A stretch of DNA of 64,000 bases from Saccharopolyspora ipomoeae (GTDB lineage Bacteria; Actinomycetota; Actinomycetes; Mycobacteriales; Pseudonocardiaceae). This document shows, piece by piece, positions 22,474 through 62,045 of this stretch. Within the stretch, counting starts at the first letter, position 1. Each line of letters starts with the position of its first letter. The stretch is taken from the NCBI RefSeq assembly GCF_029952525.1, contig NZ_JASAOF010000015.1, positions 62,001-126,000 of the forward strand, read 5' to 3'. A program made the translations under genes and the position numbers. The notes beneath the pieces are model-generated. The model searched no databases. It saw only the letters and a program-made list of their open reading frames with translations, and was not told the DNA's origin.

Positions 22474-23463
22474 TTAGTCGGGCGACGCCGTGGTTTCGGC
22501 CGATCGTGTGTTGATGTCCGGGCCGATGTCGCGTTGCGCCACCAGTGCTGCGGCGGTGTCGGAAAGATCGGGTGATCCGGGCAGGATGGCGTGTGCGCTG
22601 CGCAGGCCACCGATGCAGCCGGTGTTCGCGGAGGTCAGCGAACTGGCAGGTGGTGAGCAGGGCGCGGGCGCCGCCGGGCTCGAATCGCTCTGCCGCTCCA
22701 CGTCCGGCGCCGGGGCCTCGTCGGGCGCCCGGGGTTGCGCGTCGTCGCGGGCGGTGCTCGTGCCGGTCGCGGCCGCCGATTCGTGCGTGATCGGCTCGCT
22801 GACCAGCTCGGGAGTCGTCTCCTGCTGCTGGCCGTGGGCGGCCGCAGGCGTGGTGTGGCGCGCGTGGGAGACCTGGGCCGACGAGCCCTGGCCCTTCTCG
22901 GACGCGGAGTCGGCGTTCGACGAGGAGTTCGTCTCGGCCTGCTCGGGGCGTTGGCCGTCGTCCTCGGAGTTGCCGACCGCGGGTTCGGCCGGGCTCGGGA
23001 CGTCGGGCTTGCTCGGCTGGACCTTCTCGGGCTTGGCGGGTTCGGCCGTCTCGGGCTGGACCTTCTCCGGCTTCGCGGGTTCGACGCCGGACGTGTCCGG
23101 CTTCGACCCGGAGTCCTGCACGTCGGGCTTCGACGGCTTCTCGGAGCCCGAGCTGCTCGACCCCTTCGAATCCGATGCCGTCGAGTCAGAGCCCGAGCTG
23201 CTGGAGCCCTTCGAGTCGGACCCCTTCGCCGTGTCTGGCCCCTTCGCCGAGCCGGACCCCGTCGCCGAGTCGGATGAGGAGGCGGACTGCGTGGCGCTGG
23301 GCTTGTCGGCGTGCGCGTGTTCGGCGGCCGAGGCCGCGGTCGCACCACCGACGAGCACCCCGAGGCACACGCCGCTGAACAACGAGATCCGCACCAGGAA
23401 CGCGGCGGTCCGCGAACGGGGACCGCGCGCTGCGCAGATTCCCTTCACGGTGATCACCGCCAA
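22474..23463 (-). CDS. Secreted low-complexity Ser/Pro/Lys/Glu-rich protein
   Basis: A ~329-residue protein with an N-terminal signal peptide (hydrophobic core VRISLFSGVCLGVLVGG, cleavage near ASAAEH). The rest is low-complexity: Ser/Gly/Asp repeats (SDSKGSSSSGS twice) and Pro/Lys/Glu repeats (EPAKPEKVQP twice), then an Ala/Gln/Pro region. A C-terminal segment has PCSPPASSLTSANTGCIGG, with two cysteines that could form a disulfide. No sorting signal. The start is uncertain: TTG 23463, GTG 23457 or GTG 23448. It is most like a cell-wall-spanning or mucin-like protein; function unknown. Confidence 0.6.
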   Translation of the reverse strand: MAVITVKGICAARGPRSRTAAFLVRISLFSGVCLGVLVGGATAASAAEHAHADKPSATQSASSSDSATGSGSAKGPDTAKGSDSKGSSSSGSDSTASDSKGSSSSGSEKPSKPDVQDSGSKPDTSGVEPAKPEKVQPETAEPAKPEKVQPSKPDVPSPAEPAVGNSEDDGQRPEQAETNSSSNADSASEKGQGSSAQVSHARHTTPAAAHGQQQETTPELVSEPITHESAAATGTSTARDDAQPRAPDEAPAPDVERQSDSSPAAPAPCSPPASSLTSANTGCIGGLRSAHAILPGSPDLSDTAAALVAQRDIGPDINTRSAETTASPD

Positions 23464-23717
23464 TGTCCGTCAGGTTCGCGCGGTTCGAGCGCGGCGGGGC
23501 AACGGCTGCGCCGGGGTCGGCGCCTCCGGTTGACATTCAACCACTCCAGGGGGCGATTTCGGACCACCCGGAGCGACGATCACGACAGTTGGGCCAGCAT
23601 TCTCCATGCATTCGGGGGACTCCGGAAGGGGCCAAACGTTGTCGCGACGAAGTGGTCCGTTCCCCGAAAGGGTCTCGTCCGCTGTGGACTTCGCCCGAAA
23701 CATGCAGAGTGTCCGCT

Positions 23718-24905
23718 GTGGATCACGATCACCAGCGCGGCGGCCTGGGGCTGGCCGAACTCCATCGCATCTGGACGTCCTACGGGCACGAGATGGTGCT
23801 GCACGATGCGGGCGGCGACTCGGAATGCCTGGTCAGGCGGGGTGAACTGCTGGCTCCGGCGGAGTCGCTGGATCCCGTTCTGGACCGCTACCGGCGGTGG
23901 ATCGACCGGGTGCACCACGACGAGGAGCTGCTGCTGGCCCGCATCCGGCTGCGCGATGCGGAACGCGATCACTGCGTGGAGCTCGCCCGCGACACCTCCG
24001 GTGTGTCGGTGAACAACGTGCACGTGGGCAGCCCGGTCATGTTCGGCACACCGGTGATGTTCGGGACCGGCGCCGAAGCGGAGTTCAGCCCGCCGGTTCC
24101 GGAACCGCCTGCGGCCCAATGGGAACCGCCCGTGGTCGTGGGAGTCCTGGACACCGGCTGCGATCCGCACCCCTGGTTCACCGGCCGCCCGGGGTTCGTC
24201 GCGGCGCCGGAGGTGCTCGACGCGGACGACGACTCGGGGCAGGACCGGCAGGCGGGGCACGGCACCTTCGTCAGCGGTGTCGTGCTCCAGCACGCGCCCG
24301 GCGCGGTCATCCGGTCGCAGCGCGTGCTGTCCTCGCTGGGCTTCACCGACGACCTCACCGTCGCCACCGGGCTGCGCGCGCTGCGGCGTTCGGCGGAGCA
24401 GCGGGGCGTTCCGGTCGACGTGGTGGTGCTGACCTCCGGCTGCCACACCGCCGACGACGAGTGCCCGGAGATCCTGGCCGCCGAGCTGCGGGAGATGGCC
24501 CCGGCCGTCGTCGTGGCCGCCGCGGGCAACCACGGCCGGACCCGACCGTTCTGGCCCGCCGCGCTGCCCGACGTGGTGGGCGTGGCCGCGACCGGGCCCG
24601 ACGGCCGGATCGCGGATTTCTCCAACAGCGGCGACTGGGTCGACGCGGCGGCTCCCGGCGTGGACGTGCGCAGCTGCTTCGTCCGGATGCGGGCCGGGGG
24701 TGGCCGCAGCTTCGGCTACGCGCGCTGGAGCGGGACGTCGTTCGCCGCGCCCCGCGTCGCCGCCGTGATCGCCACCGCGCTCCAGGCCGACCGCGATCCC
24801 GAGCGGGCTCGCGCGGCCGTCGCGCACATCTACCCGGCCGCGGTTTCCGAGACCGATGTGGCGCCCGAGACGGATGCGGTGCCCGAAACTGCTGCGGTGG
24901 AGTGA
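23718..24905 (+). CDS. S8 subtilisin-like serine protease of a CHAT-associated locus
   Basis: A 395-residue protease without signal peptide. An N-terminal helical part of ~90 residues is followed by VGSPVMFGTPVMFGTG, in which PVMFGT is repeated, and then a subtilisin domain with catalytic Asp145 (GVLDTGC), His181 (GHGTFVSG), the oxyanion Asn in AAAGNHG and Ser341 (GTSFAAP), so it should be active. It ends with a short acidic repeat tail (ETDVAPETDAVPETAAVE). Lack of export signal suggests a cytoplasmic protease, unlike most subtilisins. It precedes a sigma factor and a CHAT gene in the same direction. GTG 23718 is the chosen start; there is no clear ribosome site. Confidence 0.82.
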   Translation: MDHDHQRGGLGLAELHRIWTSYGHEMVLHDAGGDSECLVRRGELLAPAESLDPVLDRYRRWIDRVHHDEELLLARIRLRDAERDHCVELARDTSGVSVNNVHVGSPVMFGTPVMFGTGAEAEFSPPVPEPPAAQWEPPVVVGVLDTGCDPHPWFTGRPGFVAAPEVLDADDDSGQDRQAGHGTFVSGVVLQHAPGAVIRSQRVLSSLGFTDDLTVATGLRALRRSAEQRGVPVDVVVLTSGCHTADDECPEILAAELREMAPAVVVAAAGNHGRTRPFWPAALPDVVGVAATGPDGRIADFSNSGDWVDAAAPGVDVRSCFVRMRAGGGRSFGYARWSGTSFAAPRVAAVIATALQADRDPERARAAVAHIYPAAVSETDVAPETDAVPETAAVE

Positions 24906-25026
24906 TTCCGGCGGGCAATTCTTGACTCGATCGTGGGGTATCCGGCTCGAACTGAATCTTTGAGGCCCCCTTCCTCCTCTTACTCGGTGGGAAAGAAGAC
25001 AACGCCGAGCTCCGGAGGTGCTGGTC

Positions 25027-25611
25027 GTGTACGAGGTCGGGGAAGCCGGTCCGGCTGCGGTGCTGCTGAGTCGGGCGGCGTCCGGGGACGAACAGGCGTG
25101 GCGGGAACTGGTGGACCTGTACACGCCGGTGATCTGGGGTGTTTCGCGCGCGTTCGCCGGCAACACCGCCGACGCCGAGGACGTCTGCCAGGCCACCTGG
25201 CTGTCGCTGGCGGAGAACCTGGATCGGTTGCGGGAGCCGGAGAAGCTGCCGGGCTGGCTGGTGACCACCGCGAGGCGGGAGGCGATCCGGTTGCGCCGGG
25301 CCCGGTCGCGGGAGGCGCCGATCGGGCTGGACACCGATCACCTGGACGGTTCCGAGCGTTCCGAGCCCGCCGAGAACCTGGTGATGCGGATGGTCTCGGC
25401 CTCCCGCCTGGCGCAGGCGTTCGGTGGCCTGCCACAGCGGTGCCAGCAGCTGCTGCGCGTCCTGGCGGTCACGCCGGAGGCCAGCTACGCCCAGGTCAGC
25501 GAGGCCTTGGGGATCCCCAGAGGAACGATCGGTCCGAAGAAGAGCCGGTGCCTGGCCGAGCTGCGCAAGCGGCTGCTCGGCGCCGAACTGCCCGAGGAGG
25601 TGGCGGGATGA
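25027..25611 (+). CDS. ECF-type RNA polymerase sigma factor
   Basis: A 194-residue group 4 sigma factor. Region 2 is at about residues 12-80 (ELVDLYTPVIWGVSRAFAGNTADAEDVCQ is the core-binding and -10 part) and region 4 is near the end (QRCQQLLRVLAV...YAQVSEALGIPRGTIGPKKSRCLAELRKRL). GTG 25027 is preferred over GTG 25018 because GGAGG (25014-25018) lies eight bases before it. The stop overlaps the next start (ATGA). No anti-sigma factor is visible; regulation may come from the partner proteins encoded downstream. Sigma factors in front of CHAT genes are a recurring actinobacterial arrangement. Confidence 0.9.
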   Translation: MYEVGEAGPAAVLLSRAASGDEQAWRELVDLYTPVIWGVSRAFAGNTADAEDVCQATWLSLAENLDRLREPEKLPGWLVTTARREAIRLRRARSREAPIGLDTDHLDGSERSEPAENLVMRMVSASRLAQAFGGLPQRCQQLLRVLAVTPEASYAQVSEALGIPRGTIGPKKSRCLAELRKRLLGAELPEEVAG

Positions 25612-26081
25612 ACCAGCGGATTCCAGCGGAACTGCGCAAGCTGCGCGAGCTGTTCCAGACCGAGGACCCGGTCCCGGAACGGGTCCTGGCCGGTTCGTAC
25701 GCGGCGGTCGCGATGCGCACGAGCGGTCGCGACCGGGGCGAGCTCAAGCTCGTCGGCGACTCGGCGGACGAGCGCGTCGGGGTGCGCACCGGAGGACCGC
25801 AGAACCGGGTGCTGACCTTCGCGATGCCCGGGCGCGTGCTGGAGATGGACCTGGTGCCCGCCGCGAGCGGGCTGGTCACGGTCTCCGGGCTGGTGCTCAA
25901 CAAGGCCGGGCAGGCTTCGCCGACCGGCGAGGTCGTGCTGCGCCACCCCGCGGGTGAGCGCAGCGGCGAGCTGGACCGGCACGGCGCGTTCCAGGTGACC
26001 GACGTGCCGCGCGGACCGCTGAGCGTGGTCTACCGGCCGGAGCGGGCCGAGCCCGCCTTCGCGGATTGGCTGGTCTGTTGA
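25608..26081 (+). CDS. Small partner protein of the sigma/CHAT operon
   Basis: A 157-residue protein with no catalytic motif. The N-terminal ~50 residues are charged and helical (ELRKLRELFQTEDPVPERVLAGSYAAVAMR), the remainder is strand-rich and resembles a carboxypeptidase-regulatory/immunoglobulin-like module: VSGLVLNKAGQASPTGEVVLRHPAG, then LDRHGAFQVTDVPRGPLSVVYR. It overlaps the sigma gene (ATGA) and the CHAT gene (TTGA), so it is produced in step with both. A role as adaptor or protease target between them is an inference from its position. Confidence 0.75.
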   Translation: MNQRIPAELRKLRELFQTEDPVPERVLAGSYAAVAMRTSGRDRGELKLVGDSADERVGVRTGGPQNRVLTFAMPGRVLEMDLVPAASGLVTVSGLVLNKAGQASPTGEVVLRHPAGERSGELDRHGAFQVTDVPRGPLSVVYRPERAEPAFADWLVC

Positions 26082-28693
26082 GCGCCGCGGCGGCGGTGAC
26101 ACCGCCGGAGGCGATCGCGGACGCGCTGCGCTGGCGCGAGGAGGCGACGGCCGTGCCGAGGGACGCGCTGCGCGAGGCCGAGCGGCTGCTGGCGGGCGCG
26201 GCACCGGAGGGAGAGCTGCGGGTGCTCGCACGGCACATCGCGGCGCTGGCCTCGGTCGAGCTCGGCATGGTCGAGCAGGCGCGCGGGCACGTGCGGCTCG
26301 GGCTGTCCACCGCCCAGCGCGGGCGGTGGGCCAAGCGGTCCGCGCAGCTGCAGCTGACGCTGGCCTGGATCGAGCTGGAGCGCGGCGACACCGGGGCGAG
26401 CTGGGCGAACCTGGCCGCGGCCGAGCCGCACCTGCCCGCCGACGATCGGCCCCGGGCGACCTGCCTGCGGGGGCTGCTGCACTGCCAGCGCGGTCATCAC
26501 CGGGATGCGCGGCTGCGGCTGACCAGCGCGCTGGCCCACCTCGACGGGGACCGGCGCTGGCGGGCGAACGCGCTGCTCGGTCGTGGCCTGGCCAACCTCT
26601 ACACCAACCGGTTGGAGGAGGCCGAGCAGGACCTGGCCGACGCCGAGCGGATCTTCGCCGCCGACGGCCGGGGCGCGCGGGCGGCGGGGTGTCGGCACAA
26701 CCGGGGCTGCGTGGCGTTCCGGGCCGGGGACCTGCCCCGGGCGCTGCGGCTGTTCGAGGAGGCCGAGGCCGCCGGGCTCGACGTCCGGGCCAACCCCGAA
26801 GCGCTGGTCGACCGGGGTGAGGCGCTGGCGGCGGCGGGGCTGACGCAGCAGGCCCGCGCGGTCATGGAGCAGGCGGCCCGGCGGCTGTCCGCCACCGGGA
26901 AGCAGGGCAGGCTCGCCGAGACCCGGCTGGCGCTGGCCGGGTGCGCGTTGCGCGACGGCGACCCGGCGGCCGCGGTCGAGGCCGCGAGCGCGGCGCGGCG
27001 GTTGTTCCGGACGCAGAAGCGGCCGGCCTGGGCGGCGCTGGCCGCGGCGATCGTGTGGCAGGCCAAGCTGCGGACCGGCCAGAGCACGCGCTGCGCCCTG
27101 TCGGCTGCGCGCCGCGCGGCCTCCGCCTGCGAGGAGTTCGGGTGGCGGGCCACAGCGGCGGAGCTGCGGCTGACCGCCGGGAAGACCGCGCAGCGCGCGG
27201 GACTGCACTCGGTGGCGCGCAAGCTGCTCCGCCGCTGCGCCCGGCTGCGCGAAAGCGACGCCGTGCCACCGCAGTTGCGGGCGATCGGGTGGTTGGCGGA
27301 CGCGCTGCTGGCCGAGCAGGACGGCAACACCGCGCGGCTGCTCCGGTCCTGTCGCGCGGGCCTGCGCGCGGTCGACGGTCAGGCCGTGGACATGGCCGCC
27401 TTCGAGATGCGGGTGCACGCGCTGGGGCTCGCCGACGAGCTCGGCGAGGTCGCGGTGCGGGCCGCGCTGCGCGTCGGCGACCCGCAGCTGGTGCTGCGCT
27501 GGACGGAGCGCTCCCGAGCCAGCGCGCTGCACCGGCGTTCGCTGCTCCCGCCGACGGATCCGGCGCTCAACGACGCCCTGGTGCGGCTGCGGGGCGCGGT
27601 GCTCGACGCGCAGCGGTCCGCCGACCCGCAGCGCGGCATGAGAACCGTCGCCGACATGGAAGAGCGGGTGCGCCGCCGGGCGATGCTCGTCCAGGGACGC
27701 ACCGACCGGCTGCGGGCACCGGCCGAGGCCGACGAGATCAGCGCCGAGCTCGGGGAGGCCGTGCTGCTGAGCCTGTTCTCCGAGCGCGGCAACCTGTTCG
27801 CGGTGTCCATCGTGGACGGTGAGTTCGGGTTGCACGCGCTCGGTCCGGAATCGGCCGCCGAAGCGCAGGCGCTCCGGCTCCGGCACCTGCTCTCGCGCCA
27901 GGCGTGCGGGGTGGCGTCGCGCGCGGCGCCGATGTTCGAGCACGGGATCAGCGTGGCAGCGGCGGAACTCCAGTCGCAGCTGCTGTCCCCGGTGCTGGCC
28001 GAGCTGGAGCGGGGGCGCGGTCTGGTCGTGGTGCCGACCGGGCGGTTGCACCTGCTGCCGTGGTCGGTGCTGCCGGCGTGCGGCGGGAACGCGGTCACGG
28101 TGAGCCCGTCCATCCGCTGCTGGCTGGGTGGCGCGGCCCGGGCTCGCGCGGCCGATCCCGCCGGGGAGCGGGTGTGGGTCGCCGGGCCTGCGCTGGACCA
28201 CGCCGAGCGCGAGGTCACGACCTTGCAGCGGCGAGGTGGTGGACGGCTGCTCGCCGGTGATCAGGCGCGGACCGACCAGGTCCTGTCCGCAGTGGACGGA
28301 GCGGCGGTGGCGCATCTGGCCGCGCACGGTCATTTTCGCGCTGACCAGCCGTTGCTGTCCTGCCTGGATCTGGTCGACGGGCCGCTCTACGCCCACGACC
28401 TCGACGGCCTGCACCGGAGCCCCACCACGGTCGTGCTCTCGGCCTGCGACGTCGGCAAGTCCGCGATCAGCAGGGGCGATCAGCTCAGCGGGCTGACCGC
28501 CACGCTGCTCGAACGCGGCACCGCCACGGTGATCGCGAGCGTCGTCCCGGTCCCGGACGAGCGCACCGTGGAAGTCATGCTGACCCTGCACGAGGCCCTC
28601 GACGCGGGTCTGCCACCAGCAGCAGCCCTCGCGAAAGCCCAAGCGCAGCACGGAGAAACGGGCTTCATCTGCATCGGCTACGGAGGTGGTTGA
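26078..28693 (+). CDS. Helical-repeat (TPR-like) protein with C-terminal CHAT protease domain
   Basis: An 871-residue protein. Residues ~1-550 are a long alpha-alpha solenoid of TPR type (repeated W/L-A-x-A patterns such as ANLYTNRLEEAEQDLADAER), the rest a CHAT domain. The caspase-like dyad is present: His750 or His752 in AHLAAHGHF and Cys790 in VLSACDVGKSA. CHAT proteases are cysteine peptidases that cut specific partners, and in some systems gasdermins. Start TTG 26078 overlaps the upstream stop (TTGA); TTG 26066 and GTG 26096 are alternatives. With the sigma factor and S8 protease it forms a compact module; no gasdermin gene is seen nearby. Confidence 0.9.
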   Translation: MSAAAAVTPPEAIADALRWREEATAVPRDALREAERLLAGAAPEGELRVLARHIAALASVELGMVEQARGHVRLGLSTAQRGRWAKRSAQLQLTLAWIELERGDTGASWANLAAAEPHLPADDRPRATCLRGLLHCQRGHHRDARLRLTSALAHLDGDRRWRANALLGRGLANLYTNRLEEAEQDLADAERIFAADGRGARAAGCRHNRGCVAFRAGDLPRALRLFEEAEAAGLDVRANPEALVDRGEALAAAGLTQQARAVMEQAARRLSATGKQGRLAETRLALAGCALRDGDPAAAVEAASAARRLFRTQKRPAWAALAAAIVWQAKLRTGQSTRCALSAARRAASACEEFGWRATAAELRLTAGKTAQRAGLHSVARKLLRRCARLRESDAVPPQLRAIGWLADALLAEQDGNTARLLRSCRAGLRAVDGQAVDMAAFEMRVHALGLADELGEVAVRAALRVGDPQLVLRWTERSRASALHRRSLLPPTDPALNDALVRLRGAVLDAQRSADPQRGMRTVADMEERVRRRAMLVQGRTDRLRAPAEADEISAELGEAVLLSLFSERGNLFAVSIVDGEFGLHALGPESAAEAQALRLRHLLSRQACGVASRAAPMFEHGISVAAAELQSQLLSPVLAELERGRGLVVVPTGRLHLLPWSVLPACGGNAVTVSPSIRCWLGGAARARAADPAGERVWVAGPALDHAEREVTTLQRRGGGRLLAGDQARTDQVLSAVDGAAVAHLAAHGHFRADQPLLSCLDLVDGPLYAHDLDGLHRSPTTVVLSACDVGKSAISRGDQLSGLTATLLERGTATVIASVVPVPDERTVEVMLTLHEALDAGLPPAAALAKAQAQHGETGFICIGYGGG

Positions 28694-37185: not shown

Positions 37186-37231
37186 TTCCCCGTCCTCTAG
37201 AGGACGGGGAAGTTTTCATGAAAACTTCCCC
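37186..37231. repeat. Two overlapping perfect 26-bp palindromes
   Basis: The first palindrome (37186-37211) is centred on CTAG, TTCCCCGTCCTCT with its complement; the second (37206-37231) is centred on CATG, GGGGAAGTTTTCA with its complement. They share GGGGAA (37206-37211), so that segment can pair with either side, like a switch between two mutually exclusive hairpins. Confidence 0.85.
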
Positions 37232-37256
37232 CACTCACGGAGACCCGGGGTGGTGC

Positions 37257-37272
37257 AGTTTTCATGAAAACT
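37257..37272. repeat. CATG palindrome, copy 3
   Basis: AGTTTTCATGAAAACT, perfect 16-bp palindrome, 26 bases after the second palindrome and 13 before the methyltransferase stop. Confidence 0.8.
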
Positions 37273-37285
37273 TCGTCATCCGAGG

Positions 37286-61098: not shown

Positions 61099-62045
61099 GT
61101 GACGGCCCAAGGAGCGGACGTGCCAGAAGGAGACGGGCAGAGCTCTGCCCGGACCGCTGCGTCCCCGCGGACCCCGGACGCCGACGCGACCGACGCCGCC
61201 GGCACCAACGGGAGCCAGAACAACGGCGACCAGACCACTGGCGACCAGACCAATGGGGCGGCCATCGAGGTCCCGGCCGCTCGCGAGCGCGCCCGCTCCA
61301 TCCCGGAGGCGGCCGTCGCCCGGCTCGCGGTCTACCTGCGCGCCCTGTCCTCGCTCGCCGAGCAGGACATCACCACTGTCTCCAGCGAGGAGCTGGCCAC
61401 CGCGGCGGGCGTGAACTCCGCCAAGCTGCGCAAGGACCTCTCCTACATCGGCTCCTACGGCACCCGCGGCGTCGGCTACGAGGTCGAGGTGCTGATCGGT
61501 CAGATCGAGCGGACGCTCGGCCTGACCCGCAAGCACAGCGTCGCCGTGGTCGGGATCGGCAACCTCGGCCACGCGCTGGCCAACTACGGCGGGTTCCCCG
61601 GCCGCGGTTTCCCGGTGTCGGCGCTGTTCGACCTCGACGACGACCTGGTCGGCGTGCCGGTCGGCGGCATCCCTGTCAGCCACATCGACGACATCGTCGA
61701 CGTGTGCTCCCAGCGCGAGGTCACCATCGGCGTCATCGCCACCCCCACCCAGGGCGCGCAGGAGGTCTGCGACCGCCTGGTGGCGGGCGGCGTCACGTGC
61801 ATCCTGAACTTCGCCCCGGTCGTGCTGCAGGTTCCCGAGCACGTCGAGGTGCGCAAGGTCGACTTGGCGGTGGAGATGCAGATCCTGTCGTTCCACGTGG
61901 CCCGGCGGCAGCAGGAAGCGGCCGCCTCCGGCGAAGCCGCGTCCGGTCAGGTCGCGTCCGGCCAGGTCAACGGGGCCGGTCCGCCGGGCGGCGGCGCAGG
62001 GCTCCCGGGCGAGATCGATTCGGCGAACAGGATGGTGGAACGGCT

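Follow-up and report, generated by a model that had tools for sequence, protein, structure and literature searches.

Among the sigma factors of extracytoplasmic function (ECF), group ECF54 has been described from a gene context that comprises a subtilase, a CHAT protein and a 'carboxypeptidase', and proteolytic control has been proposed for it (Huang 2015 and Casas-Pastor 2021, as summarised in PMC8999054); in that summary the group is listed without an anti-sigma factor. Two precedents come from systems linked to clustered regularly interspaced short palindromic repeats (CRISPR): in Craspase (type III-E) the TPR-CHAT protease Csx29 cuts Csx30, the inhibitor of the sigma factor CASP-sigma, according to PMC10028731, and in the type III system CalpL/CalpT/CalpS a soluble protease is described as cleaving a cytosolic anti-sigma factor that acts on an ECF sigma factor (PMC11417357). 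Other neighbourhoods joining a caspase and an ECF sigma factor are mentioned among conflict systems in PMC8195603. The locus analysed here belongs to Saccharopolyspora ipomoeae and lies in a stretch of 64,000 nucleotides, hereafter the window (positions 62,001 to 126,000 of contig NZ_JASAOF010000015.1), whose own numbering is used throughout. Four intact genes on the plus strand at 23718-28693 encode an S8 subtilisin-like protease of 395 residues (23718-24905), an ECF sigma factor with regions 2 and 4 (25018-25611), a small partner protein of 157 residues (25608-26081) and a TPR-CHAT caspase-like protease (26078-28693).

With a subtilase, a CHAT protein and a carboxypeptidase-like protein around its sigma gene, this module corresponds in gene context to the description of ECF54. 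As that context is already in print, the module is not a new kind of system; new within the literature searched are its division into pairs, the role proposed for the partner, the modelling of S8 as a zymogen and the promoter with candidate targets. The block is tentatively interpreted, at slightly less than even confidence, as a cytosolic protease-gated ECF sigma switch composed of two pairs. What was computed comprises the genes present and their order, the integrity of domains and motifs, co-occurrence, a single fusion and the conservation of the promoter, with folds taken from models; from these we infer that the partner binds and inhibits the sigma factor, that it is cleaved in response to a signal, and that the sigma factor reads the promoter described below.

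Conservation and division of the module

The partner and CHAT gave one match each in all 22 Saccharopolyspora genomes. The same gene order runs through 20 neighbourhoods (L060-L079; 18 from genomes of the genus, two from other genera): a MocR-like gene, S8, sigma factor, partner, CHAT, an aminotransferase gene and a DUF445 gene. The exceptions are L076, where no S8 was found, and L075, where no MocR-like gene was found; S8 is thus near CHAT and the partner in 19 of the 20. MocR-like is the name for a fusion of a GntR domain and an aminotransferase. Within the genus the module looks like a vertically inherited core and not like an island.

Profiles were built from 121 loci (40 fetched, 80 named and the window), many of which are redundant, and for 112 of 115 partner matches in these loci the sigma gene lies just upstream on the same strand. 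Because loci should not be chosen by CHAT, the partner profile was used to search 296 genomes of the class, yielding 115 matches in 101 genomes, and 100 of the 115 places were fetched. The sigma gene was present at 97 of these 100 partner loci, CHAT within about 7 kb at 80, S8 at 65 and all four genes at 62. On the same genomes the CHAT profile found 106 at E 1e-20, of which 101 reached E 1e-40 and were counted, and five weaker ones (G162, G200, G217, G286 and G302) were left out. Both proteins occur in 100 genomes, the partner alone in one (G131), CHAT alone in one (G129) and neither in 194, which gives a phi of 0.985, kinship among the genomes making any P value for this co-occurrence meaningless.

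CHAT was not nearby in 20 of the 100 partner loci, which belong to 19 genomes; 16 of these were searched and 15 carry CHAT elsewhere. In four single-contig genomes (G109, G164, G174 and G210) it is more than 1.8 Mb away from the partner in contig coordinates, and co-occurrence of the two genes while unlinked is harder to explain by linkage. Furthermore, S8 adjoins the distant CHAT gene in 15 of the 16 loci returned; the sixteenth holds one half of a gene that is divided between two contigs of one genome. The module therefore splits as sigma factor and partner versus S8 and CHAT, and the system is one of two pairs, both kept by the genomes, in which the sigma factor travels with the partner and S8 with CHAT. 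A preliminary description of the window, made from its letters alone, had proposed that the four genes form one functional set, with neighbourhood conservation as the check and partner-CHAT co-occurrence as the point on which the proposal might fail; both came out in its favour, the latter nearly perfectly and even between unlinked genes.

Features of the four proteins and their genes

The sigma protein matches the general ECF model above its cut-off; an alternative start at 25027 has, as judged by eye, a better Shine-Dalgarno spacing than that at 25018. The partner gene follows directly downstream and is co-conserved with the sigma gene, an arrangement expected of an anti-sigma factor, and in one natural case the two proteins are fused. 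The predicted fold of the partner consists of two N-terminal helices (residues 7-18 and 24-38) and a beta-sandwich (residues 47-143 approximately), and 18 of 47 members resemble, mostly below threshold, the carboxypeptidase regulatory-like domain of Pfam. Judging from gene linkage, co-conservation and the fusion, the partner is probably a cytosolic, non-enzymatic anti-sigma protein and, as proposed below, a protease substrate; the 'carboxypeptidase' of the ECF54 context is proposed to be this same non-enzymatic protein.

The CHAT domain (PF12770, E 2.2e-33; about 27959-28648) has His750 and Cys790, both invariant in 13 aligned sequences (alignment numbering +4). It is preceded by TPR-like repeats at residues 133-376 or so (about 26462-27193), which match TPR_12 (9.4e-07) and TPR_MalT (0.0014), both under the Pfam cut-off. 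By the sequence criteria of repeats plus a His/Cys dyad the protein is a TPR-CHAT protease, its proteolytic activity being predicted. Solved chains named 'CHAT domain protein', which are presumably the TPR-CHAT component of Craspase, were matched only marginally (E 0.15).

The S8 protein (Peptidase_S8, E 1.1e-22) carries the triad Asp145, His181 and Ser341, invariant across 39 aligned sequences, and, as judged from Pfam and the model, comprises a pro-domain and a catalytic domain. Its predicted structure (predicted local distance difference test 84.9, with block means of 87-96 for model residues 11-100) includes an N-terminal folded, pro-domain-like part at residues 12-104 (23751-24029), and the best structural matches, covering model residues 40-379, are unprocessed pro-subtilisins; the sequence also matches intracellular subtilisins. 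The hexapeptide PVMFGT occurs twice in succession (residues 106-111 and 112-117; 24033-24068) at the pro/mature junction of the model. Subtilisins prefer large hydrophobic P1 residues, and the repeat is a putative duplicated auto-processing site. Other tandem peptide repeats, each specific to its lineage, are found at the same junction in L097, L092, L099 and L098. The protein models as a zymogen, its pro-domain packed on the catalytic domain and the repeat located at the junction between them. As a separate observation, a single sigma-partner pair in L099 is surrounded by S8 and CHAT genes in two copies each.

The highest mean hydropathy over 19 residues ranges from 0.83 to 1.43 across the four proteins, and a cytoplasmic location is plausible for all of them since none has a strongly hydrophobic N-terminal stretch. 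The preliminary description holds for the four intact same-strand genes with their domains, for the catalytic residues apart from His752, which it had listed beside His750 and which is not conserved in the 13 sequences, and for the internal PVMFGT repeat; the lack of a signal peptide that it claimed for S8 agrees with the hydropathy values on which the location is judged here. Four-base overlaps had been reported for the last three genes: that of the sigma and partner genes (ATGA) stands, and that of the partner and CHAT genes (TTGA) depends on TTG at 26078 being the CHAT start, GTG at 26096 being the alternative.

Promoter-like element and candidate targets

Ahead of the sigma gene lies the bipartite promoter-like element TGAATC-N18-CTCTTA (24953-24982, plus strand), which is presumably read by the sigma factor that the module encodes. 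TGAATC-N18-CTCT is found at this place in 21 of the 22 genomes of the genus; the window and its closely related genomes have the CTCTTA form, as has Halosaccharopolyspora, a variant occurs in Halopolyspora, and TGAATC-N14-18-CTCTTA has a single occurrence in the genome of S. ipomoeae itself. The looser pattern TG[TA]ATC-N16-19-CTCT was scanned over 236 loci (3.40 Mb) with a zone of 20-420 bases upstream of each gene, and was found 44 times upstream of S8, 39 times upstream of the sigma gene, never upstream of CHAT and 48 times elsewhere, against about 0.5-0.6 per class by chance, duplicated loci inflating these counts. Sixteen of the matches within the zone are from outside Saccharopolyspora, Streptomyces and Halopolyspora, among them matches in Salinispora, Kribbella, Actinomadura, Catellatospora and further families.

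A scan of the 22 genomes of the genus allowing one mismatch gave 39 places, 16 at the operon, six at a trypsin gene and 17 at other sites. The control patterns gave 13, so that single promoter matches mean little and the case for the trypsin rests on conservation among orthologs. The trypsin (PF00089, 2.4e-58) has an N-terminal hydrophobic stretch and is therefore probably secreted. An ortholog is present in all 22 genomes (two of the 22 best matches are flagged with one in-frame TGA), and TGTATC-N18-CTCT stands upstream of it in 21, as compared with none of eight paralogs checked among 44 paralog matches. Each Saccharopolyspora genome has three trypsin matches and the element was seen only at the best of them; in G000 they include G000:C33:199897-205637 and G000:C46:55709-56449, two of the matches lying close together. 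In one single case, G020, the pattern is missing from both the trypsin and the operon promoters.

Twelve further genomes were taken as Streptomyces on the basis of loci 80-96% identical to named Streptomyces and about 67-68% identical to the best of ten others. In these, TGTATCA-N15-17-CTCT occurs at 16 places (control patterns 5), of which nine belong to the operon, four precede a G-tract leader and three lie about 5 kb away in front of a gene whose one examined copy matched AAA_16 weakly. The AAA-type site is present in L412, L413 and L415 and in named loci, for instance at 12747 of L148. Among 29 named Streptomyces loci, at least two of them incomplete, 27 have the operon site and 15 a second site 4.5-5 kb away, which supports the AAA-type gene as a target; as such sites were counted among the 48 matches elsewhere, that background is overestimated. 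The G-tract leader, located around position 1500 in L414, L408, L402 and L417, contains GGGGGA 8, 6, 5 and 1 times, respectively, and a strong GC hairpin; it had no Rfam match and is possibly a small RNA.

A second likely cis-element lies upstream of S8, where two copies of GTCCGCTGTGGA (23677-23722, plus strand) are spaced 34 bp from start to start and the second copy overlaps with the start codon of S8. Both copies, with at most one mismatch each, were found in 15 of the 20 loci L060-L079, the spacing being 34 in 14 and 35 in one, and the direct repeat is kept in most loci of the genus and also in Saccharothrix (L116). Since 34 is not a multiple of three, protein coding cannot account for both copies; GTCCGCTGTGGAC is itself a GTCC-N5-GGAC dyad. 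Elsewhere in the window, a 23-nt stretch at 37206-37274 occurs in two copies 46 bp apart, contains the dyad GAAGTTTTCATGAAAACTTC and is operator-like. The minus strand at 22474-23463 encodes a divergent protein, rich in Ser and Asp, which has a hydrophobic stretch at its N terminus and no Pfam match; its similarity drops fast beyond the closest relatives.

Proposed mechanism, rival explanations and related systems

In the proposed switch the partner would hold the ECF sigma factor inactive, and the TPR-CHAT protease would sense a signal that leads to cleavage of the partner, either by CHAT alone or together with the subtilisin, which would first free itself of its pro-domain by cutting at the PVMFGT junction. 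Once freed, the sigma factor would start transcription at TGAATC-N18-CTCTTA before its own operon and, in Saccharopolyspora, also at TGTATC-N18-CTCT before the trypsin gene. The preliminary description had suggested that proteolysis gates the sigma factor or a death effector; of the two, sigma-factor gating by way of the small protein fits best and is refined here, in that the partner stays with the sigma factor, S8 goes with CHAT and S8 is sometimes absent.

Several results weigh against this switch. Three of the partner loci have no sigma gene even at E 10, and all three have S8, one of them with CHAT as well. In 16 further genomes the sigma factor, partner and CHAT are present with no adjoining S8; the S8 profile, which was not calibrated in these genomes on true module S8, detected a subtilase of at most 105 bits in 12 and none at E 1e-10 in four. 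S8 is thus optional and not essential to a general mechanism. Pfam gave no anti-sigma family for the 47 partner members, and its N-terminal helices resembled no known anti-sigma domain in the searches made, of which the one by fold covered mainly residues 44-157. Gaussian direct coupling analysis (140 loci, effective number 68-87) placed the sigma-partner pair lowest of ten protein pairs by z (6.69, the others 6.74-9.74) and third-highest by raw score, and is uninformative for this pair, lending no support to it. As to the promoter, the loose pattern was derived first from Saccharopolyspora and Streptomyces, which are part of the scanned loci, it falls within the zone in only 82 of the 236 loci, and the genus scan has 17 places outside the operon and the trypsin, a number close to the 13 of the control.

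The three loci lacking a sigma gene would fit a partner linked to the proteases, as would be expected if the sigma factor were the direct target of proteolysis and its level were kept low by CHAT and/or the subtilisin without any anti-sigma factor, with the partner acting as a protease adaptor. Direct proteolysis also agrees with the published proposal from gene context for ECF54, as given in PMC8999054. It is nevertheless considered unlikely, as the partner is linked more tightly to the sigma gene (97 of 100) than to CHAT (80 of 100), remains with the sigma gene and not with the proteases where the module is split, and is joined to the sigma factor in the one fusion. Linkage, fusion and co-occurrence are silent on the sign of regulation, however, and would also fit a partner that assists the sigma factor as co-factor or chaperone and that the proteases destroy to end the response; against this somewhat less likely explanation, both CRISPR-linked precedents are described as working through cleavage of an inhibitor (PMC10028731, PMC11417357).

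A conflict or programmed-death module, with the proteases as effectors and the sigma factor secondary, is regarded as improbable. CHAT and subtilase domains do occur in conflict systems, and PADLOC returned matches at the domain level (for S8 to a subtilase, 1.6e-11, and to IetS, 1.9e-4; for CHAT to BovA, 3.5e-4). PADLOC found no complete known anti-phage system for the module, however, and only generic helix-turn-helix matches of one protein among ten neighbours, and the promoter analysis points to the operon itself and the trypsin as targets. The death-effector or defence role raised earlier is likewise not borne out by the conserved synteny between the MocR-like and aminotransferase genes and the presence of the module throughout the genus. 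Least probable is ancestral clustering of genes whose products have no direct interplay; the whole region is indeed syntenic in the genus, but order and strands vary between families, and the partner and CHAT co-occur even when unlinked.

The protease-gated switch, which remains the preferred interpretation, can be set beside the described systems. ECF54 lists no anti-sigma factor, and the beta-sandwich partner tied to the sigma gene is proposed to be the missing one. No description of the partner as an anti-sigma factor, or of the module as a CRISPR-free counterpart of Craspase, was found in the open-licence literature searched. The conflict neighbourhoods touched on in PMC8195603 differ from the module in make-up, and CalpL is a Lon-SAVED protease triggered by cyclic tetra-adenylate (cA4), as given in PMC11417357, a domain of which the Pfam search of the module proteins gave no sign. 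The module S8 has its pro-domain and catalytic domain in one chain, as do the pro-subtilisins Tk-subtilisin and subtilisin E and the intracellular subtilisins, and like the latter it has no evident signal peptide; unlike pro-subtilisins, it has a lineage-specific tandem repeat at the junction and is partnered with CHAT.

Identity of the module with Craspase itself was considered and rejected: PADLOC matched no Cas protein among the 14 proteins scanned (four of the module and ten neighbours), no CRISPR-like array was found at 10000-42000 of the window, and the sequence similarity of its CHAT protein to the solved chains is marginal. The module differs furthermore in its additional subtilisin and in a partner whose profile matches no solved chain. 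If the partner is read correctly, the same three roles of TPR-CHAT protease, regulator protein and ECF sigma factor recur in both systems, and in our reading the module works like Craspase in its logic, as a CRISPR-free counterpart. A wider proposal, held with less confidence than the switch itself, is that actinomycetes commonly carry such a CRISPR-free TPR-CHAT/anti-sigma/ECF switch, which would be akin to the source from which systems of the Craspase type might have been put together, that the ECF54 'carboxypeptidase' is an overlooked anti-sigma factor, and that the regulon is very small, consisting of the operon itself with the trypsin in Saccharopolyspora, and with the AAA-type ATPase gene and the G-tract-repeat RNA in Streptomyces. 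If the proposed switch is right, a sigma group listed without a regulator would gain one, concrete promoters and a trypsin target gene would allow the signal to be sought by reporter genetics, and the caspase-like protease switch known from CRISPR systems would have a common non-CRISPR counterpart in actinomycetes, where both genes are found in 100 of 296 genomes of the class.

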